Source: Verrucomicrobiales bacterium (GTDB lineage: Bacteria; Verrucomicrobiota; Verrucomicrobiia; Verrucomicrobiales; DEV007). From it: a DNA stretch of 64,000 nucleotides. The notes beneath the pieces were generated by a model. It saw nothing but the letters and a program-made list of their open reading frames with translations, ran no database searches and was not told the DNA's origin. Position 1 is the stretch's first letter. The number at the start of each line of letters is the position of its first letter. Of the stretch, positions 8,939-19,630 are shown piece by piece. The stretch is taken from positions 1 to 64,000 of the forward strand of contig JARGPH010000001.1 in assembly GCA_029213065.1 (NCBI GenBank), read 5' to 3'. Made by a program: the position numbers and the translations under genes.

Positions 8939-9436
8939 ATGAAGTTTTTCTCAAAACGTTCTTACCGCCAAAAGGGCTACACGTTAATTGAAGCCCTTGT
9001 AGCCTCGGGCGTGCTTCTCATCGGAGTGAGCGCGGCTTGCTCGATGTCTCTCTCTCTCGTGACACAGGAGGAGATCAACGAGAGGTCAATCAGGGCCTTC
9101 AACTACCTTGACAACGCAGCCCGCCTTTACCGTCTCGGGATGGAACCTTCCGAGATTCCCGCACTGCTTCCCAACGAACCGATCGTCGACTCGATCACAT
9201 TCGTCTCCCGCAAGGTAGCTGCGAGCGGCATAGGAACTTCCGGAACCACGAGTTTCCCCATCATGAGAATCACGATGACTTACTACCCTTCCGGAGCCAC
9301 TGCCGCCTACGACAAAGACGTGGAACAGTGGACCGGTGGAGACAAAGCCACGACACGAAGTGAGCACCTCGATGTGCTTCGCTCTGAATCGGTTCAGCTG
9401 TCGGAATTTTCCCGCGTCAGCACCCTTGCCCCATAG
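8939..9436 (+). CDS. Minor pseudopilin, GspI/PilV-like
   Basis: This 165-residue prepilin has a 13-residue basic leader ending in KG, then YTLIEALVASGVLLIGVSAACSM. The pattern G|(F/Y)TLIEALVA is the hallmark of GspI and PilV minor pilins. Glu+5 is present. The C-terminal domain is small and beta-rich. It is the third of three consecutive pseudopilin-like genes (J-, K- and I-like), consistent with a tip-initiating complex. It needs a prepilin peptidase, which is not encoded in this window. Confidence 0.83.
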   Translation: MKFFSKRSYRQKGYTLIEALVASGVLLIGVSAACSMSLSLVTQEEINERSIRAFNYLDNAARLYRLGMEPSEIPALLPNEPIVDSITFVSRKVAASGIGTSGTTSFPIMRITMTYYPSGATAAYDKDVEQWTGGDKATTRSEHLDVLRSESVQLSEFSRVSTLAP

Positions 9437-9475
9437 TTTTTTCGCCCCTCACTTTCATCTTAAATCTCTGAAGCC

Positions 9476-10699
9476 ATGCTAAAGAAAGTTTCTCTAACAA
9501 ACGTCCACACCGGAAGGAAATCCGCATTGGTTATCGATACGGATACCGATGCCAAAGCTCTCATCGGTTCGGGAAAAACACAGGTGGAAACAGCCGAGAT
9601 CGCCGATATCAAAGGACTCGACGAAACGATCCAGCGGCTCTCAGCATCGAAGAAGAACCTTGATGACCGCGTTGTTCTCTTCAACGGACTTGCGAAATGT
9701 TTTGATCGGAATATTCCCATCATCAAAAGTTTTCACCTTCAGGCAAACCGGGTGAAGACCCCCCGGTTCCGCGGACTCATTGCCGACGTCGCTGATGATC
9801 TCGCCAAGGGCGAAAAGATCAGCGACGCGATGGCGAAGAAGGATGATGTCTTCACTCCTGATTTGATCGCACTGATTCGTGCCGGAGAGGAAGCGGGAAG
9901 ACTGCCCGAGATTTTCCGGAGAATCGGAAACAGCCAGAAAAAGACTTCACGGATTATCAAAAAGTTGAAGTCCGGAATGATCTATCCCGCAGTCGTGATG
10001 GTCCTCGGGATTGGTGTTGTCATCACGATGAGCTTTACGCTCGTGCCGGCAATGTCAAAACTCTACCAGTCATTGAATCATGATCTCCCTGCCGCAACCA
10101 AGGGAATGATGGCTTTCTCTGATATTCTACTGAAGCAGCCCTGGGTCGTGGCCCTGCCCATTATCGGCCTGATTGCCTTCTTTAAGAACTGGGGAAAAAT
10201 CAACCGGCTGAAGTTCATGCAGGATATGTTCATCAAGATTCCCTCGGTTTCCAATCTCGTGCGAAAATCAGCCGCAGCGGTCGGCTTCCGCACCTTGGCA
10301 CTTCTCATTGAAGCCAACGTCCGACTGACCACAGCTCTTGATATCACTGCGGCGACGTCGTGGCACTATCATTACAAGACATTCTTCACCAAGGTGAGAG
10401 AACACATCATGTCAGGGATGACGATGCCGGATGCCTTCCTCATCGAATCCCACTGGCTCGGAAATGACGGGCGCCTCATTTGCGGATTCATGGAAACAGC
10501 GGCGGAAACAGGCGCCGACACGGAACTCCTCAACGAAATCGCCGAAGATTACGAGGACGAACTCGATACCGCAGCCAATCAAATCGATAAGCTGATCGAG
10601 CCCGTCACGATCGTCCTCCTCGGTTCAATGGTCGGATTTCTCGTCTACGCCATTTACGCGCCCGTCTTCAGCCTCGGGGACGCTCTTCTTAAAAAGTAA
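9476..10699 (+). CDS. pilC: Inner-membrane platform protein PilC/GspF
   Basis: This 407-residue polytopic platform protein transmits ATPase motion to pilin subunits. It contains two T2SSF-type domains (about 60-185 and 265-385), each with the characteristic helical region (SDAMAKKDDVFTPDLIALIRAGEEAG, and RLICGFMETAAETGADTELL). Three membrane segments lie near 165-190, 215-235 and 375-400. The length matches the family. The start at 9476 is the first ATG after the upstream pilin gene, and no Shine-Dalgarno is seen. The next gene is 155 bp away across an AT-rich region with its own promoter candidate. Confidence 0.93.
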   Translation: MLKKVSLTNVHTGRKSALVIDTDTDAKALIGSGKTQVETAEIADIKGLDETIQRLSASKKNLDDRVVLFNGLAKCFDRNIPIIKSFHLQANRVKTPRFRGLIADVADDLAKGEKISDAMAKKDDVFTPDLIALIRAGEEAGRLPEIFRRIGNSQKKTSRIIKKLKSGMIYPAVVMVLGIGVVITMSFTLVPAMSKLYQSLNHDLPAATKGMMAFSDILLKQPWVVALPIIGLIAFFKNWGKINRLKFMQDMFIKIPSVSNLVRKSAAAVGFRTLALLIEANVRLTTALDITAATSWHYHYKTFFTKVREHIMSGMTMPDAFLIESHWLGNDGRLICGFMETAAETGADTELLNEIAEDYEDELDTAANQIDKLIEPVTIVLLGSMVGFLVYAIYAPVFSLGDALLKK

Positions 10700-10754
10700 G
10701 CGAAACCCCGGTCTTACAACGGCCAATGCACAATTGTTAATTTTATAAAAAATA

Positions 10755-10783
10755 TTGTATTTATAGTAAATGCGAATTATATT
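10755..10783 (+). promoter_or_regulatory. Promoter candidate for the first pilin gene
   Basis: TTGTAT (10755-10760) and TATATT (10778-10783) are separated by 17 bases inside an AT-rich stretch following the PilC gene. Transcription from here would give a leader of about 65 bases before the pilin ATG. A separate promoter would allow high pilin expression independent of the assembly genes. No sigma-54 type GG-N10-GC element was seen. Confidence 0.42.
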
Positions 10784-10854
10784 GATCTCGAAGTATTTCG
10801 GTCAACAACATCCCGAACTCTTCATACCAAACCCAACAAAAAGACAACCATACC

Positions 10855-11256
10855 ATGAAAGTAAATAACCATCTCTCGTCCAAGCGCGGCTTCAGCCTTG
10901 TCGAGATGCTCGTCGTCATCGCTGTGATCGGCATCATTGCTGCCATCGCCGTTCCTAACATCGGTCGTATCAACGATTCCGCTAAGGACGCTACCTACCG
11001 CCGAAATGCACAGAACCTTGCTTCTGTTTGCGCATCAGCCCAGGCAGCCGGCCTCGATTTCGTTGGAACTTCCACGAACGAGAAAGCAGTCATCAAGAAG
11101 GTCATCACCGGTAACACGGTTACAGATCCCGGACCATTCCAGAACACATTCTTCGGTGTTCCCGGCTTGAATCCTACCGATGCCGTCAGCGAGACAGCAG
11201 GTGCTGCCAAGTATCTCTCGATCTCCAACGGAATGCTCCAGTACACGGGCAACTAA
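10855..11256 (+). CDS. Type IV pilin-like protein, probable major pilin
   Basis: This 133-residue prepilin has a 12-residue leader ending in Gly, then the textbook FSLVEMLVVIAVIGIIAAIAVPN helix with Glu+5. The remaining domain (about 100 residues) is small, as in GspG-type or short type IVa pilins. Being the shortest canonical member, with its own promoter candidate and a strong hairpin immediately downstream, it is the best candidate for the main subunit. No C-terminal cysteine pair is visible, so the domain is probably stabilised differently, for instance by a calcium site as in GspG; this is inference. Confidence 0.88.
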   Translation: MKVNNHLSSKRGFSLVEMLVVIAVIGIIAAIAVPNIGRINDSAKDATYRRNAQNLASVCASAQAAGLDFVGTSTNEKAVIKKVITGNTVTDPGPFQNTFFGVPGLNPTDAVSETAGAAKYLSISNGMLQYTGN

Positions 11257-11308
11257 TTCGTAGGCGTCGAATCAGCTTTAGCTGAGACACTCTACCAATT
11301 GATCTTTC

Positions 11309-11337
11309 GTCCGGCATCCTGCCTATGGATGCCGGAC
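11309..11337 (+). terminator. Perfect hairpin between pilin genes (attenuator or mRNA-stabilising stem)
   Basis: An 11-bp perfect stem (GTCCGGCATCC, 11309-11319, pairing with 11327-11337) has a 7-base loop. It lies in the 122-bp gap after the first pilin stop. It is followed by pyrimidine-rich sequence, not a clean T-run, so it may be an incomplete terminator or a 3' processing barrier. Either would make the first pilin more abundant than the genes downstream. A smaller palindrome (TCAGCTTTAGCTGA) lies just before it. Confidence 0.6.
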
Positions 11338-11378
11338 GCCCCTCTCCTCTTCTATTATTTTGAATCACCAGTTTTGAA

Positions 11379-11807
11379 ATGAAAACTAACACCGCTAACC
11401 GAACGAACAATGCATTCACCATGGTGGAAATGCTTATCGTCATTGCCGTGATAGGAATCATGTCAGCACTGGTCATTTCCTCTTTCTCAAACGCGGCGCA
11501 GGACAGCCGACGTGTTGTTGCCCGCCAGCAACAGGCCGCCGTCCAAAACGCGGTCAACGCCTGGGTAGCGGAGAAATCCTCCAGAACCAGCCTTTACGAC
11601 GCGAGAACGGAGTACAACGCTAAAACCAACGGTGAAGACAAGCTCGACGAAATCCAGAGGTATCTCGACGACTCTACTTACCAGCATTTTAAGGACAACA
11701 CTTCGGACAATAATAAGATCCAAAGTGCCGCGCTTAAGAAAACCGGCCAGCATCTAACACTCAGCCCGTGGCTCGCTGGTTCCTACCCCAAAGTTTCACT
11801 GGATTAA
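11379..11807 (+). CDS. Pilin-like protein
   Basis: This 142-residue prepilin has a 12-residue leader ending in Asn-Ala, then FTMVEMLIVIAVIGIMSALVISSF. The residue before the cleavage site is Ala instead of Gly, which some prepilin peptidases accept. Glu+5 is kept. The C-terminal domain is polar and helical at first (RRVVARQQQAAVQNAVNAWV). It is the second of four consecutive pilin-like genes and is likely a minor subunit. No Shine-Dalgarno sequence precedes the ATG. Confidence 0.83.
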   Translation: MKTNTANRTNNAFTMVEMLIVIAVIGIMSALVISSFSNAAQDSRRVVARQQQAAVQNAVNAWVAEKSSRTSLYDARTEYNAKTNGEDKLDEIQRYLDDSTYQHFKDNTSDNNKIQSAALKKTGQHLTLSPWLAGSYPKVSLD

Positions 11808-11833
11808 TCCCCATCCCCTACCACGCCAAGATA

Positions 11834-12226
11834 ATGAGAAATATACAATCCAAACCCCGCGGATTCTCACTGGTCGAAGTACTCGCCGCTGTGGGCATCA
11901 TCGGAATTATCGCCTTCCTCGCAATCCCTAACATTGTCGCAATCAAAGAGGATTCCGAAACCAACCTGGCTATTTCCAGAGCTGAGGCAGCCAACATGGC
12001 GATCGTCTCTTACATTCAGGCTAACGGCAAAGACGCTGTTGCAGCGAACTGGGGAACCCTCAACAACCAGGGCCGCTACGCAAAGCTCCTTCCCTACCTC
12101 TCCTTTGCACCGGCTACGATTGTCGAATTTTCACCCAACGGGTTCACGATCACTCTTCCGGCAAACTTGAATGCGCTGACAAAATCAACCCTGCTTGATT
12201 ATGCAAACAAGCCGGTTCCCTACTAG
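11834..12226 (+). CDS. Pilin-like protein
   Basis: The ATG at 11834 gives a normal 10-residue basic leader (MRNIQSKPRG) before FSLVEVLAAVGIIGIIAFLAIPN. The upstream in-frame codons overlap the preceding gene and are less likely to be used. The 130-residue product has Gly-1, Phe+1 and Glu+5, all canonical. The C-terminal domain is small, like that of the first pilin, so the two may be paralogues serving as alternative subunits. It lies 26 bp after the previous gene. Confidence 0.83.
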   Translation: MRNIQSKPRGFSLVEVLAAVGIIGIIAFLAIPNIVAIKEDSETNLAISRAEAANMAIVSYIQANGKDAVAANWGTLNNQGRYAKLLPYLSFAPATIVEFSPNGFTITLPANLNALTKSTLLDYANKPVPY

Positions 12227-12247
12227 CACCCACACTCTTTCTTTCAG

Positions 12248-12748
12248 ATGAAGCTCAACTCGCAACCATACTCAGCCGGTATCTCACTGGTCGAAGTCAT
12301 CACTACCGTTGCAGTCCTCGGAATTCTTTCGTCCCTGGCCGTCCCTGCTTATCATCGGGTGATCAGTGGCTCGAGCACAACGATTGCTTCAAATCTCGTT
12401 GAAACCTTAAACGGAGCGACCAAAAAATTCAGTCACTCCCAGTGGGATCTCATCTATACCGCTAAGCCGACTCAGGCGAGTGACGAACTTTACGTCCTCA
12501 GAACGCTGCAATGGAAAGACCCTGACACCACAGGCGAGTTAAATCCGGGCGGCCCTTTCATGACACCCAACTGGAGTCCCGCGACGTCTTCGAGCGACGA
12601 AGATTACCGCGCGGAGTGGACCGGGTCTTCATGGCGCCTCCTCGAGCCCGGAGAATCCGGGACCGGCCTCAAACTGGCCCTGGATGCAAGTGATGTCGGG
12701 ACGGGCTATACCTTCCCCTCCGATTTCAAACCTGCCGGCGCAAACTAA
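12248..12748 (+). CDS. Pilin-like protein, GspH/minor-pilin type
   Basis: This 166-residue prepilin has an 11-residue leader ending in Ala-Gly, then ISLVEVITTVAVLGILSSLAVPAY. Residue +1 is Ile, not Phe, but Glu+5 is present. The C-terminal domain is larger than in the neighbours, with Trp-rich patches (NWSPATSS, YRAEWTGSSW). It is the last of four adjacent pilin-like genes and directly precedes the assembly ATPase, 42 bp away. It probably acts as a minor pilin, but its exact class cannot be fixed. Confidence 0.8.
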   Translation: MKLNSQPYSAGISLVEVITTVAVLGILSSLAVPAYHRVISGSSTTIASNLVETLNGATKKFSHSQWDLIYTAKPTQASDELYVLRTLQWKDPDTTGELNPGGPFMTPNWSPATSSSDEDYRAEWTGSSWRLLEPGESGTGLKLALDASDVGTGYTFPSDFKPAGAN

Positions 12749-12790
12749 GTCCCTTTATTCACTTTTTTCTTCCTATCCCACCTCTCCCCA

Positions 12791-14968
12791 ATGTCTTCAC
12801 TCGGAACAAACAGCCCGCTTATCAAGGGGTCGCCAACAGATCTCGATACCGGAAGCGCCTCCGGTTCAAAGGACATGGCAAAATTCGGAGCAGCCTTTTC
12901 AGGGCTGATCTCACTGGAGGGCATGGCCGTCCAGTTTGGCATGCTCCCGGTGAAGCTTGCCCGGGAGACCTGCTCGGTGGAGGCGGAAAACTTGATCCGC
13001 CGGCTGGGACGCAACCCCCGTTCCGAAAACCCCTGGTTACCCATTTCGACGCTGGGCCCATTACCCATTTTTGCGCATCACGAACCGAAGTCCGAGGATA
13101 TGTGGGGAGTTCCCTCCTGCCTTGCCGTGCGGGTCGTAATCTCCGAGGAACAGTATGAGAAAATCCGTCGCGACCTCGTGATGCGACTTTCCAATACTCC
13201 GCTTCCATCAGAAGGGACTCTGGGCCAGATGGTGGCACCGAACCTCGCGAACAACGATCTCGAGGCGGCCTTCCGCTGGTTGCTGGAAAACTACCCTTAC
13301 TCCGAGGAGGAGAATGAGCGAATCTCGATGCTTTACGCGGAAGCGGTGGACAAACACGGCTACGTAGATCAGGAGGGTTTCAACGCGATCATCCCTTCAC
13401 TGGGGGTTGCACTCCAATACCTCAGTTGCGGCCCTTCAATGCTGTGCTTCAACCCCGAGGAAGTGCCCAAGCAGGACATCGTTTCCCACGGCATGCTGGA
13501 AAAACACGAGGTCTACCCGGTCTATGCAGGAGAACATCGGGTCTACCTCCTTTCAACCTCCGAGGACAATTTCGCGCTCGAGGACGAATGGCTTTCCCAG
13601 GGAAATGACCCGGTTGAATTTATTCCCGTCATCGCTGACCTGAAGGCGATCAAAGCGCTCATCAGCCGGACCGGCTCTTCAGGCGTAGCCCAGGCCGGCG
13701 TCGAAGTCGAACGCTCGCAACTTACAGTTTCGAACGCGGAAGGTCTCGTTGAGATCATGCCGGATGACGTCGCGCTGATCAATCCTCAGAATGTGAATCA
13801 CACCGCGGAAGAGTTGATGCATTGGGTATTTTACACTGCAATCACCAACCGGGCTTCTGATCTTCACCTCGAAAAATATTACAATGTAGCCCGTTTCCGT
13901 GCCCGTATTGACGGCAAGCTCCGGACCATCTACACAGCTCCCGAGGAGATGATGCAACGCTTCATCGCGCTGATCAAAAACTACGCTAACATGAGCCAAA
14001 CCCGACAGGAGGCTCTCGACGGACGAATCGCTCTCGCAATCGGCACGCGGCGTGTTGACGTTCGTGTCGCCGCAGTTCCCTGCCGCAGCGAAATGCAGAA
14101 GATCATTATGCGTTTCCTCGACAAGCAGGACGGACTGAAAGAACTTTCCGAACTCAATTTCTCGAAACGTCAGGGAATGATTGTGAAGCGGGTCATGAGC
14201 CGTGATCAGGGCCTCATCCTCATCACAGGACCTACCGGGTCCGGCAAAACCACTACGCTCTACGCTCTCATTAACAGCGTGAACGACGAAGGTATTAACA
14301 TTCACACGATCGAGGATCCTATCGAATACGAGATCGAGGGAATCAACCAGACACAGACCGATCCGACTCACGGCCTGACATTCAGCAATGGACTTCGTGC
14401 GCTCCTGCGCTCAGATCCGGATGTCATTCTGATCGGTGAGTGCCGTGATCAGGAAACCGCGACTTCCGCGATCAATGCCTCTTTGACAGGCCACCTCGTC
14501 CTGACAACCTTACACGCGAACGATTCGCTAAGAGCCGTTTCACGTCTCCTTTCCATGGGTGTCGAGCCCCATCTTGTGGGTGACTCTCTTGCAATGTCTC
14601 AAGCTCAGCGACTGGTTCGCCGCCTCTGCAACTATTGCAAGCGACCATCGAAACCGAATCCGAAGATACTCGAACTGTTTGCCCGCCAGGGTATCCGCCA
14701 TGCGAATGCCGACACGACCCTGTTCACCGCAACGGGGTGCCAGGAATGCGCGGGAACCGGGTATTCAGGCAGGGTCGCCCTGATGGAAATGGCGGAGATC
14801 AATGCTGAGATTGCAGATCTCATTGAAGTACAAGCCACTCAGACTGAACTTAAGAAAGCGGCCCTGAAATCTGGATTTCAGACACTTTATCAGGAAGGTT
14901 TAACTCATGTCCTTGCAGGAAACACGACTCTGGACGAAATTAAGAAAGTCAGCTACACCGCATTTTAA
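12791..14968 (+). CDS. pilB: PilB/GspE assembly ATPase
   Basis: This 725-residue ATPase drives pilus or pseudopilus polymerisation from the cytoplasm. An N-terminal GspE_N/MshEN-like region (about 1-320) is followed by the catalytic part. Walker A is GPTGSGKT (480-487), the Asp box is HTIEDPIEYEI, the Walker B-like segment is VILIGECRDQETA, and the His box is TGHLVLTTLHAND. A four-cysteine zinc site (CNYC ... CQEC, about 613-655) marks it as GspE/PilB and separates it from PilT. The N-terminal region is longer than in many homologues. It ends the structural part of the operon, 17 bp before the response regulator. Confidence 0.93.
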   Translation: MSSLGTNSPLIKGSPTDLDTGSASGSKDMAKFGAAFSGLISLEGMAVQFGMLPVKLARETCSVEAENLIRRLGRNPRSENPWLPISTLGPLPIFAHHEPKSEDMWGVPSCLAVRVVISEEQYEKIRRDLVMRLSNTPLPSEGTLGQMVAPNLANNDLEAAFRWLLENYPYSEEENERISMLYAEAVDKHGYVDQEGFNAIIPSLGVALQYLSCGPSMLCFNPEEVPKQDIVSHGMLEKHEVYPVYAGEHRVYLLSTSEDNFALEDEWLSQGNDPVEFIPVIADLKAIKALISRTGSSGVAQAGVEVERSQLTVSNAEGLVEIMPDDVALINPQNVNHTAEELMHWVFYTAITNRASDLHLEKYYNVARFRARIDGKLRTIYTAPEEMMQRFIALIKNYANMSQTRQEALDGRIALAIGTRRVDVRVAAVPCRSEMQKIIMRFLDKQDGLKELSELNFSKRQGMIVKRVMSRDQGLILITGPTGSGKTTTLYALINSVNDEGINIHTIEDPIEYEIEGINQTQTDPTHGLTFSNGLRALLRSDPDVILIGECRDQETATSAINASLTGHLVLTTLHANDSLRAVSRLLSMGVEPHLVGDSLAMSQAQRLVRRLCNYCKRPSKPNPKILELFARQGIRHANADTTLFTATGCQECAGTGYSGRVALMEMAEINAEIADLIEVQATQTELKKAALKSGFQTLYQEGLTHVLAGNTTLDEIKKVSYTAF

Positions 14969-14985
14969 TCCCGACAATCATCACT

Positions 14986-15441
14986 ATGAACGCCACAGAA
15001 ACAGCCCCGGAAACCGCGCCAGCAATGGCAGAACCAACCCCGCGAGTCCTCATCGTCGATGACGAGAGAGCGATGCAGATGTTGGCTGGCGCGATCGTTG
15101 ATAAACTCGGTTACGACTTCACCTGCGCCTCCAGCGGCGAAGAGGCCGCCGAACTGACGAAACAGGCAATAGAGGAAGGAAATCGATACTCAGTTGTGGT
15201 CATGGACCTTGCCCTTCCCGGTGGAATGTCAGGACTCGAGGCAACTATCGCCATCAAGCAACTGGACGCAGACGCACAAGTCATCGTGAGCAGCGGCTAC
15301 CTTGAGCAGAACGCCCGTTCGGCAGCGCTTGAACACGGCTTTGCAGGGATCCTTCCCAAGCCTTACACGGCAGATCGCCTCGCCTCAGAACTCAAATGGG
15401 TCGTGAAGCGAAGCAACGCCGCCACTCAGGAAAACGTCTGA
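14986..15441 (+). CDS. Single-domain response regulator (CheY-like)
   Basis: This 151-residue protein has a Pro/Ala-rich N-terminal tail (about 20 residues) and one receiver domain. It shows the acidic pair (IVDDERAM), the phosphoacceptor Asp in VVVMDLALPGG, a Ser switch residue in IVSSGYL and the conserved Lys in LPKPYT. There is no output domain, so it must signal by protein contact. Its position at the end of the pilus locus suggests control of assembly or motility, as for PilG/PilH-type regulators; this is inference. A 7-bp inverted repeat (15440-15446 / 15465-15471) spans the convergent gene ends. Confidence 0.88.
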   Translation: MNATETAPETAPAMAEPTPRVLIVDDERAMQMLAGAIVDKLGYDFTCASSGEEAAELTKQAIEEGNRYSVVVMDLALPGGMSGLEATIAIKQLDADAQVIVSSGYLEQNARSAALEHGFAGILPKPYTADRLASELKWVVKRSNAATQENV

Positions 15442-15447
15442 GCCGGT

Positions 15448-17103
15448 TCACTGTGGATTCTGATCCGGCTCATCGCCGGATCGCACCCCGGAGTCTTCAT
15501 CGCTCCGGTAGCTCGCAACCACGAGGCCGCTGAGATATTTGTCAGGATTTTCCACGGCCTCTTCTGTGATCAAAAAGGTATCCTGCCCCGTATTCTTGCG
15601 GATCAGGTTAAGACCGAACTGAAAGTCGCGGAAAAGCTCTTCGCACACTTGGAGAATGCTCTGATTCTTCACTTCCGACAAGGAAGCTATCCTCGCGGCG
15701 GCGTCGTTCCGGATATTAAGTCGCACACCGTGACTTTCCTCGAATTTCCTCCGGAAGGCCGCGATTTCAGCGATGACCCGCCCGTCCCCGACAGGGCCGG
15801 CATCTGAAAGGATAGAATCCAGCGTTGCCACGGGATCTTTCACGAGATCTCCACTCACGGACAGCTCAGTGATTGAAGTTCCCGGCAGTTCAAATTTAAA
15901 ATTTCTGAGAAGCCGCTCACAAACCGTCATGAGTCCCCTCGCCCCGGTTTTCTCTTTTTCGGCAGCGGTCGCTATTTCCTGCAAAGCCTCATCCGAAAAC
16001 TGCGCCCGGATTCCAAACGCCTCAAACTCGCGCTCATACTGGCGAATCAGACTCCCTTCAGAGTTTTTCATTATGTTGAAAAGATCATCCGCATCGAGAT
16101 GATCGCAGACAACCCGCACCGGAAGCCGGCCTATGAACTCGGCTTCGAATCCAAAGTCGATGAAATCACGGGTCTCCACCAACTCTTCAAGGAGCGTCTC
16201 CTGAATGCCGGCGCTGCTCTCAGCTGAGAAACCTATAGCACCCTGACGAACACGCTTCTCGACGATCTTTTCAAGCCCCGAAAAGGCGCCACTGACAATA
16301 AAGAGGATGTGCCGGGTATTAATCGAATCTTTCCCTGATTTACCGCCTTTGCTCATCTCAAACATCGCCTGCATTTGAGACTGCATGTCCTGGGGATTGC
16401 GAACCGGGACTTCGGTCTCCTCCATCAACTTGAGCAAAGTCGTCTGCACGCCCCTGCCACTGACATCCCTGCCCGAGGAATTGGAGGCGGTCGCAATCTT
16501 GTCGATTTCATCGATGTAAACGATCCCGTATTCAGCGAGGGAAACATCCCCGTCGGCCTTCCTCACCAGCTCCCGAACGAGATCATCAACGTCAGCGCCG
16601 ACATATCCCGTCTCGGAAAATTTGGTTGCATCCGCTTTCACGAAGGGCACCCCGATCAACTCGGCAATATGTTTCACCAGATAGGTTTTCCCGACTCCGG
16701 TTGGCCCTACCACAATCACATTCTGTTTCGCGAATTCAATTTTACCGGCCTCCTCCGGGCTCTCCTGTTCGAGGCGCCTCAAATATTTGGCGTGATTGTA
16801 GTGATCACACACCGCTATCGAAAGAGCCTTTTTGGCTTCATCCTGACGAATCACAAATCGATCGAGATGCTTTTTGATATCGCGGGGAAGCAGGTCGAAA
16901 TCGAAAACATCGACCGGGTCCTCTGATTTCACATCGTGCGTTTCTCCCGAGCTCTCAGGAGCGTTGGCAAATGGATTCATGCCATCCGGCATCGATGAGA
17001 AAGAAACCTGATCGCCGAAATTCGACTTTAAAAATTCCGAAAGTTTTCGCGAAATTTCATCAGGATCAGGAAAGGGCGTATTGTCGTCGTCTTTATCGCT
17101 CAT
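15448..17103 (-). CDS. ClpX-like AAA+ unfoldase with duplicated C-terminal small domain
   Basis: The ATG at 17103 (551 residues) is chosen over a GTG at 17154. The AAA+ core has Walker A GPTGVGKT (133-140), the pore loop GYVG (166-169), Walker B IVYIDEID (194-201), an IGF tripeptide (290-292) placed like the ClpP-docking loop of ClpX, and the sensor-2 GARG (387-390). The usual four-cysteine zinc domain of ClpX is missing; the N-terminal 75 residues are acidic and low in complexity. The small domain (about 357-430) appears repeated at about 451-527: VCERLLRNFKFEL (394-406) matches VCEELFRDFQFGL (486-498). No clpP is nearby. It is probably an ATP-dependent unfoldase, but ClpP partnership is unproven. 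Confidence 0.88.
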   Translation of the reverse strand: MSDKDDDNTPFPDPDEISRKLSEFLKSNFGDQVSFSSMPDGMNPFANAPESSGETHDVKSEDPVDVFDFDLLPRDIKKHLDRFVIRQDEAKKALSIAVCDHYNHAKYLRRLEQESPEEAGKIEFAKQNVIVVGPTGVGKTYLVKHIAELIGVPFVKADATKFSETGYVGADVDDLVRELVRKADGDVSLAEYGIVYIDEIDKIATASNSSGRDVSGRGVQTTLLKLMEETEVPVRNPQDMQSQMQAMFEMSKGGKSGKDSINTRHILFIVSGAFSGLEKIVEKRVRQGAIGFSAESSAGIQETLLEELVETRDFIDFGFEAEFIGRLPVRVVCDHLDADDLFNIMKNSEGSLIRQYEREFEAFGIRAQFSDEALQEIATAAEKEKTGARGLMTVCERLLRNFKFELPGTSITELSVSGDLVKDPVATLDSILSDAGPVGDGRVIAEIAAFRRKFEESHGVRLNIRNDAAARIASLSEVKNQSILQVCEELFRDFQFGLNLIRKNTGQDTFLITEEAVENPDKYLSGLVVASYRSDEDSGVRSGDEPDQNPQ

Positions 17104-17212: not shown

Positions 17213-19630
17213 CTAGGGAAGCAGTTTCGCCAGCGCGGTCCATTGAGCTGAGAATTCCGGTGAAACCGCCGCCAGTTCTTCGCCGAGAGACGTCGCCAGC
17301 GCCCCCTGCCTGGTCGCAATCGCGAAGGCCACCATTTTCTCCCTGTCACCCGTATTTTCCGGGCCCAGTTCCCCCTGCAATTCAACCGCAGAGGCGATCA
17401 TCCAGGCGGGATCAAAACTTTCAACCTCCACTTCATTCGGCCCGAACCCCAGATCGACGGTGAATGTGGAGGGATTTGCCGCTGTGATCGCCGCATTCAG
17501 CGGAACTCCTTCGCGTCTCAAAATTCTCCCCTCGTAATTCCCCGCTGCCAGCAAATCCGCGAGCACCTGTATGAATGCGCCGGCCTCTGTGTAAACCTCG
17601 ATCAGAGCGGCTTGAAGCTGCGCTGCGGAGGCAGACTCAAACTCGAGAGCCTCCAATTGAGCCACTGCCCCGGTAAAGAGAAGCGTTTCGCTGTAGGAGG
17701 TAAATGAAGCATAAAGCGCTTTTATTTCCTCCAATTCCGATTGTGCGGTTGCCTCATCCTCTGAAGCCATTCCGGAATTCCCGTCAGGCTCCGAGCCGCC
17801 GGGCGAAACTTTGACAACAGCCGCAGCACTCGCTGCCGCCGCTGCTTTCTCCTCCGCGACCAGCTTCTGAATTTCATCGACCCGATCGAGCCGCTCTTTG
17901 ATCAACGCGGGAAATCTACCGGGCGACTGCGCGGCTTCCTTCGCCTGTTTTAACGCTGCCTTCATTTTGGAAGGATTCATCGAGGCCCCCTTCCGTGCCG
18001 GATTGGGCAGCGATTTCAATTCGGAGAAATCAGCGTAATAAGCCTTGAGAGGCGCAATCAATGAGTCTTTCCAGGCATACTGAGAAGGGAGACTGCACGA
18101 TTCAAATTTTTGAAGATACTCAATCCCGGATTCGAACTCGCCGCATTGCCAATTTTTCAATCCCGCGAGGAGCCACCCCACGGCATCGAAAGACGAGGTC
18201 CCGAACTCAACATCGGATTTTAAAAATGGGAACGGTTCCAATAGATTCGAGGAAATTTTACCGAGAAAGGTCGTCACTTCCGGGGAATCCTCCGAAGCGC
18301 TGGAAAAATTCTTCTGAACCTCCAGAAAGGCCTCCCTCGAATCCGCTTCCCTGCCTTCGAGCAGAGCAATCGTCCCCCGAAAGAAGCCAGTCCACATCCG
18401 CGTGGAAGGTGAAAGGTTGGTCGCTTTGGCGAGATCATCGAAGGATTTACCTGCCTGGCGAAATCGTCCCGTAGAAAAGTGCTCCCGCGCTTTCAGGAAC
18501 TGCTCGGCATTCGAATTCTCACTCGCGTCAATCACCCGTTCCCCACCGACAATGCCGAATGAGGGATTCTCCATGACCTCCTCTTTGGGAATCATCAGAA
18601 ACAAAATCACGGTAAAAATCAGCAATCCACCGGCGATCCCGGCGAGAGTGGGTATTTTGCTCTTTTGGGTGGTTTTATACCGGCTGCTGCGCCCAAATTC
18701 GTGCAACAGAATCCGATCAATTCGCTTAAGCAAATCCTCATAAGACTGGGGCCGATGCTGAGGGGAATAAGCCATCATCGACTCGATCAGCTTGATCGTT
18801 GCCTTCGACACCCCCGGAGCGACAGCCTTGAGATTCACTGACTGCTTCTTGATCTCTTTCAGTTCCTCCAGCGAAGACGTATTGGCCTCAAAGGGAGGCA
18901 CTCCGGCGAGAGCATGGTAAAGCGTCGCGCCCAGGCTGTAGATATCGCCGAGATAAGTGTCAGGCTCGCCGTCGAGCTTTTCCGGAGGGACATAGAACGG
19001 TGTCGCCCACAAATCCTCCGATTCATCTACGCCGCCCTGTTGCACGGCGAGACCGAAGTCGACCAACTTGGTGGTCCCGTCTTCCGTCACGAGCATGTTG
19101 CCGGGCTTGATATCACGGTGAATCAAATCCTCGTCATACGCGGCCCGCAGCCCGTTCGTAACATCATGAGCAATCCTCAGCACCTCAGCCTCCCCGATGG
19201 CCCCCTTCTCTTCGATCACCTTCTCAACGCCGGTGGCATCGACGAGCTCCATCGCGATGAAAAAGTAGCCCTGGTCCTGACCCACCGCATAAACCTTGAC
19301 CACGTTCGGATGAATAATCAGGGCGGTTAACTTGGCTTCCCGCTCGAACATAGCGGTCAAGTTCGCGTCCCGGCTCAATGCCTGGTGGAGCACCTTGAGT
19401 GCGACCTCCCGCCCGAGATGCCGATCCGAAGCGCGAAAAACCTGGCTCATTCCCCCTTCCCCGAGGAGCCCCGTAATATCATACTGCCCCATCGAAGTCC
19501 TCACCCTGATCGACTCACCGCAATGGGTGCAGGTGATCTTTGAATACGGCGAGAGGAGCGAGACATCCAGCGCCTGCTTGCACTCAGGGCAATGATTCAC
19601 CGCCGGATTCTGATTTTCCTTTTCCTCCAT
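17213..19630 (-). CDS. Zinc-ribbon Hanks-type Ser/Thr kinase with extracytoplasmic domain
   Basis: This 805-residue membrane kinase has an N-terminal zinc ribbon (Cys 14, 17, 34, 37) and a kinase domain (about 50-310). The kinase has a GEGGMSQVF glycine loop, Lys79 in VALKVL, HRDIKPGN (171-178) and DFG (191-193); APE is replaced by PPE. All catalytic residues are present, so it should be active. A membrane segment lies near 327-350. The outer part is helical with TPR-like hairpins (about 370-560), then a low-complexity Ala/Glu linker and a C-terminal unknown domain. The start is at an ATG after a gap shared with kdsA. The signal it senses is unknown. Confidence 0.9.
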   Translation of the reverse strand: MEEKENQNPAVNHCPECKQALDVSLLSPYSKITCTHCGESIRVRTSMGQYDITGLLGEGGMSQVFRASDRHLGREVALKVLHQALSRDANLTAMFEREAKLTALIIHPNVVKVYAVGQDQGYFFIAMELVDATGVEKVIEEKGAIGEAEVLRIAHDVTNGLRAAYDEDLIHRDIKPGNMLVTEDGTTKLVDFGLAVQQGGVDESEDLWATPFYVPPEKLDGEPDTYLGDIYSLGATLYHALAGVPPFEANTSSLEELKEIKKQSVNLKAVAPGVSKATIKLIESMMAYSPQHRPQSYEDLLKRIDRILLHEFGRSSRYKTTQKSKIPTLAGIAGGLLIFTVILFLMIPKEEVMENPSFGIVGGERVIDASENSNAEQFLKAREHFSTGRFRQAGKSFDDLAKATNLSPSTRMWTGFFRGTIALLEGREADSREAFLEVQKNFSSASEDSPEVTTFLGKISSNLLEPFPFLKSDVEFGTSSFDAVGWLLAGLKNWQCGEFESGIEYLQKFESCSLPSQYAWKDSLIAPLKAYYADFSELKSLPNPARKGASMNPSKMKAALKQAKEAAQSPGRFPALIKERLDRVDEIQKLVAEEKAAAAASAAAVVKVSPGGSEPDGNSGMASEDEATAQSELEEIKALYASFTSYSETLLFTGAVAQLEALEFESASAAQLQAALIEVYTEAGAFIQVLADLLAAGNYEGRILRREGVPLNAAITAANPSTFTVDLGFGPNEVEVESFDPAWMIASAVELQGELGPENTGDREKMVAFAIATRQGALATSLGEELAAVSPEFSAQWTALAKLLP

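Follow-up and report, generated by a model that had tools for sequence, protein, structure and literature searches.

A divergent ClpX paralogue with a second small domain in Verrucomicrobiota

ClpXP is among the best understood protein-destruction machines, and the rules by which it chooses its substrates rest on the zinc domain and the RKH loop of ClpX. In HslU, a zinc-less single-ring AAA+ protein, the C-terminus reaches the protease HslV. Divergent extra ClpX proteins are not unheard of, as one lacking both the zinc domain and the RKH motif is documented: Myxococcus xanthus ClpX3 (MXAN_2743) has been described as an additional, isolated ClpX paralogue without the N-terminal domain and without the RKH motif, and its deletion impairs growth at raised temperature (PMC11423568). 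Likewise, ClpI of the Actinomycetota was found by sequence analysis and reported as a distinct, phylum-restricted class of Clp unfoldases (PMC10149685). The protein described here resembles ClpX3 as far as the published description goes, the parts of which drawn on here do not mention a second small domain (PMC11423568); ClpI, which was drawn from a catalogue of such unfoldases in another phylum, offers a precedent for a phylum-restricted unfoldase class (PMC10149685). Among open-access papers, none describing the duplicated-small-domain architecture was found.

The window analysed is a 64,000-nucleotide stretch of a Verrucomicrobiales genome, in which a clpX-like paralogue occupies 15448-17103 on the minus strand. 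Its open reading frame comprises 551 codons and a stop, running from an ATG at 17103 to a stop codon ending at 15448, and the start is supported by the alignment of M1 in all 52 family members. Relatives are full-length and mostly 55-76% identical, and their presence in many genomes rules out a frameshift or fusion artefact. The part that matches ClpX models and solved ClpX structures spans residues 72-423. The AAA+ large domain (residues 71-325; 16129-16893, minus strand) is delimited by PF07724 (1.9e-27), the alignment to 4i34_B and motif counts, and contains Walker A at 133-140, the pore-1 GYVG at 166-169 and Walker B at 194-202, with the GRLPV arginine finger following just after. The first small domain (residues 330-434; 15802-16116, minus strand) carries the sensor-2 GAR at 387-389 and is defined by PF10431 (5.4e-06), the AlphaFold model and the structural alignment to ClpX. 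As Walker A, GYVG, Walker B, the arginine finger and sensor 2 are intact in the paralogue and in nearly all of its 66 relatives, the ATPase is under selection. The full-length AlphaFold model (pLDDT 82.7) aligned with the ClpX hexamer chain 4i34_B over 312 residues (Z 34.0, 2.4 A). Motifs and predicted fold together thus establish an ATP-driven ClpX motor, and the intact ClpX core that the earlier note had read from the letters, including an IGF at the ClpP-docking position, is complete. By alignment to ClpX, this tripeptide forms the ClpP-docking loop at residues 290-292 (16228-16236, minus strand); among the 66 members it reads IGF in 51, MGF in nine, LGF in three and VGF in two, and is lost in one.

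Comparison with curated families placed the paralogue near ClpX. It shares with ClpX (TIGR00382/PRK05342) the AAA+ core, GYVG, arginine finger, sensor 2 and IGF loop, and its best NCBIfam matches are ClpX models. However, the curated cut-offs of TIGR00382 and PRK05342 were not reached, the two scores being 314.6 against 370.75 and 345.6 against 359. In contrast to canonical ClpX, it lacks the zinc domain and the RKH loop, has an extra small domain and belongs to a separate clade. Judged by its parts, the protein would work like ClpX, while it fails several tests of canonical ClpX. HslU is also zinc-less and single-ringed, but the paralogue scored 201 bits against the HslU model TIGR00390, far below the cut-off of 362. 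The positions of Walker A (133) and Walker B (194) leave no room for the HslU I domain, which is absent, and unlike HslU the paralogue has an IGF loop. As none of 14 paralogue-carrying genomes had an HslV match over the cut-off, this low TIGR00390 score and the HslV result rule out an HslU-type partner of HslV.

The same genome encodes a canonical zinc-domain ClpX on another contig, which excludes the paralogue as its only ClpX. In the AAA+ core tree, the 66 paralogues formed one clade (support 100/98) falling outside all sampled canonical ClpX, while the canonical ClpX of Verrucomicrobiota grouped with those of Proteobacteria, Clostridia and Actinobacteria (support 97/93). This topology rules out a recent copy of the genome's own ClpX. 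The phylogeny indicates that the paralogue is ancient, although the tree, with a long stem of 2.2 changes per column and midpoint rooting used for drawing only, does not fix the age of the split. Near full-length paralogues were present in 99 of 388 sampled Verrucomicrobiota genomes, about a quarter, together with a handful of fragments. The carriers span several dozen families, and some groups of the same order are without it. In a genome-wide scan with the paralogue, the best 80 matches were all from Verrucomicrobiota. A viral scan returned two relatives that matched residues 73-423 and 76-411 only and were without the second small domain. An apparent two-domain ClpX from Clostridia, matched over residues 73-534 in a plasmid collection, proved to be canonical, a zinc-domain ClpX of 421 aa whose alignment had been over-extended. 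Separately, ClpX-like AAA+ proteins of about 400-450 aa that diverge strongly and sit on long branches of the core tree were observed in the window's genus (loci L225, L226, L228 and L229), and likewise at L227 (genome G053), L230 (G042) and L231 (G236).

The cysteine-rich N-terminus of ClpX, a C4 zinc-binding dimerisation domain, was found in none of the 66 family members, in agreement with the absence of a four-cysteine domain proposed earlier from the window sequence. Its place is occupied by a short helix (residues 13-29; 17017-17067, minus strand; helix 14-29 in the AlphaFold model), whose PxPEEIxxxLxxF pattern recurs across the clade. Where canonical ClpX has the RKH substrate loop VPPQGGRKHPQQEF, the paralogue has VRNPQDMQSQMQAMF (residues 234-248; 16360-16404, minus strand; motif table and ClpX alignments). 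According to the motif table, the RKH loop and the zinc domain are missing clade-wide in the 66 paralogues. Given the known roles of these missing parts, a different mode of substrate entry can be expected, which would use neither zinc-domain adaptors nor the RKH-dependent ssrA route. Entry might instead fall to the conserved N-terminal helix together with partner proteins.

A second small domain, here termed C2, is delimited by profile, fold and selection at residues 441-538 (15490-15783, minus strand). The earlier note had drawn attention to a repeat at 394-406 and 486-498 with a period of about 92 and to the loss of the GAR sensor-2 motif in the second copy. Indeed, VCERLLRNFKFEL lies at 394-406 and VCEELFRDFQFGL at 486-498, 92 residues apart, and the sensor-2 place reads TGARGL in copy 1 and NQSIL in copy 2. 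Profile-profile comparison of residues 330-430 with 438-536 by hhalign gave a probability of 97.8, an E value of 9.5e-13 and a score of 69.4, whereas 100 column shuffles of either side scored 18.5 or less, and 100-residue windows taken from outside the small domain of the paralogue about 12 or below. These controls confirm that the small-domain repeat is real and above chance. Predicted alone (residues 437-541), C2 adopted the small-domain order of elements with good confidence (pLDDT 86.3). Among the VIA-align matches listed for this isolated model, all 50 were small domains of ClpX or HslU, the best being 8yd0 residues 318-412 (Z 8.8), with HslU at Z 8.1; Z values near 8 are middling by themselves, and the weight comes from the absence of unrelated folds among the listed matches and from the agreement with the profiles. 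Foldseek gave probabilities of up to 1.00 and a TMq of 0.51-0.56 for most matches, with weak E values of at least 0.046. Thus, in both profile and fold the second segment agrees with a small domain, and on these two points the earlier note had staked the duplication.

In single-sequence Pfam scans, PF10431 was the family most often named for C2 by the members. However, the C2 of the window had no match to it and just four of 52 members did (best E value, 0.077), the profile and fold tests being more sensitive. Since such scans miss C2, ordinary annotation would overlook it. A sequence search of C2 against solved structures returned nothing useful. By hhalign, the C2 profile scored 81.9 against the paralogue's own first small domain and 37.7 against canonical ClpX small domains, and this closeness to its own first copy identifies C2 as an internal duplication. 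C2 was present in 64 of the 66 members, with all 64 tails recognised at an E value of 2.3e-9 or better. The stretch following the first small domain measures 96-144 residues in these 64 extended paralogues versus 0-25 in 23 canonical ClpX, among which the earlier expectation that standard ClpX is without a two-small-domain plan therefore holds. Median dN/dS was 0.18 for C2 and 0.13 for the core, many of the pairs not being independent; C2 is under purifying selection. Its conserved motifs are a DxQFGLxLIxKNTG stretch and a DPDxxLSxLVVxSY helix, and a stretch that carries an insertion when compared with copy 1 is among its most conserved parts.

The two members without C2 (L216 and L217) are both nested within the clade, so that C2 was present early and has probably been lost twice, as judged from the tree. 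No remnant of C2 was detected downstream of either gene, the one match corresponding to where the first small domain of L217 itself ends. L217 (G174, contig C42) is the second paralogue of its genome, which encodes a C2-bearing one and a canonical ClpX as well. It is also the member that has lost the IGF, and its protein may on that account be independent of ClpP. As L216 and L217 lack it, C2 is not strictly required.

The sensor-2 GAR is not needed for the small-domain fold but is usual in working copies of the ClpB_D2-small family, and C2, having lost it, would be unable to sense nucleotide. With its tether directly behind the first small domain, C2 would most likely add six modules to a hexamer, placed on the protease-proximal outer rim by analogy with HslU. 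The conserved FGLxLIxKNTG/LSxLVVxSY face could bind a partner protein, ClpP or a neighbouring subunit. From the lost sensor 2, the conserved surface and the analogy with the C-terminus of HslU, we infer a peripheral docking or regulatory module. Alternatively, C2 could be a structural clamp in a ClpP-dependent unfoldase, replacing the dimerising zinc domain without binding any partner. The zinc domain is absent from all members while C2 is found in 64 of 66, and small domains are inherently modules of subunit interfaces, both of which would suit a clamp. However, L216 and L217 manage without either domain, and the conserved, insertion-bearing stretch of C2 suggests a new surface, making a clamp quite unlikely. 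The reading that we favour, and regard as reasonably probable, is that of a second dedicated ClpX-type, ClpP-dependent unfoldase with a different substrate entry, in which C2 serves as a non-catalytic docking or regulatory module.

For such an unfoldase, the predicted hexamer would dock on ClpP through its IGF loops, as the conserved tripeptide strongly suggests, and would unfold and feed to ClpP a set of substrates unlike that of canonical ClpX. ClpP was found in nearly all paralogue-carrying genomes examined and in all 24 tested genomes of at least 90% completeness, the match in G104 being weak (1.5e-6). Two single-contig 0.9-Mb genomes that are 99% complete (G086 and G107) have no canonical ClpX and keep the paralogue, ClpP and tmRNA along with a pair of large Clp proteins that are taken to be ClpB and ClpC. 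As a ClpC-sized protein stays in both, their retention of ClpP is no proof of pairing with the paralogue. In both genomes, the clpX paralogue is followed by a RecR gene (G086, contig C1, L174; G107, contig C1, L173). Canonical ClpX is also missing from the fragmented assemblies of four further genomes (G104, G413, G385 and G431), three of which are without a full ClpP match as well, for which reasons assembly gaps are the likely explanation. A second strong ClpP beside the canonical one was observed in G222, G269, G140, G316, G073, G137 and G177; its distribution does not simply track the clpX paralogue, which was not found in G073 and G137.

Two further explanations bear on the pairing with ClpP. 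The paralogue could be a ClpP-independent chaperone or remodeller, in which the IGF loop is a relic and C2 serves non-proteolytic remodelling by stabilising or changing the ring. In the loci read, the paralogue was not linked to clpP, and L217 keeps its motor with neither IGF loop nor C2, as such a role would allow. However, without ClpP docking it is difficult to account for an IGF-type tripeptide in 65 of 66 members, and the reduced genomes retain ClpP with the paralogue as their only ClpX; we therefore consider a ClpP-independent role unlikely. Mixed rings are a far more improbable alternative, in which the paralogue would form hetero-hexamers with canonical ClpX and C2 would regulate or cap mixed ClpXP rings. 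Most carrier genomes have both proteins, which share GRLPV, sensor 2 and similar motifs, but the core is about 37% identical to the genome's own ClpX, and in the two reduced genomes the paralogue occurs without a canonical ClpX.

The gene immediately upstream of the clpX paralogue, about 110 bp away and on the same strand, encodes a Hanks-type Ser/Thr kinase of 805 aa (17213-19630, minus strand; PF00069, 8.5e-48). The kinase has an N-terminal zinc-ribbon-like CPEC/CTHC segment. Among named loci with enough flank, 50 of 68 had an adjoining upstream kinase (43 on the same strand, seven divergent), and the adjoining kinase is conserved across much of Verrucomicrobiales, with some Akkermansiaceae loci showing it in divergent orientation (L087, L090-L092, L096, L098 and L110). 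In contrast, one of 48 deeper loci had it, and the linkage is therefore typical of a lineage and lies outside the core function. In the lineage of the window, the kinase is possibly a co-transcribed partner of the clpX paralogue, and as a lead it is a candidate regulator of the paralogue in Verrucomicrobiales. No phylum-wide conserved neighbourhood of the paralogue was found; RecR, a UbiE-like methyltransferase and other neighbours differ by family. On the other side of the gene, small prepilin-like ORFs are clustered at 8939-14968 on the plus strand of the window, together with genes for a PilC-like membrane protein and a type II/IV secretion ATPase (PF00437); next comes a lone response-regulator gene (14986-15441), which is transcribed towards the clpX paralogue.

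More tentatively, and with some doubt, the paralogue may represent a phylum-wide class of ClpP-dependent unfoldases in which six duplicated, non-catalytic small domains replace the zinc-domain adaptor platform, creating a second regulated gate to ClpP that supplants canonical ClpX in reduced genomes. The paralogue provides a natural test of which parts of ClpX set the choice of substrates and partners, and C2 would indicate that evolution can turn a spare AAA+ small domain into an accessory module. Overall, Verrucomicrobiota gain a second probable gate to ClpP, which in two small genomes is the sole one of the ClpX type.
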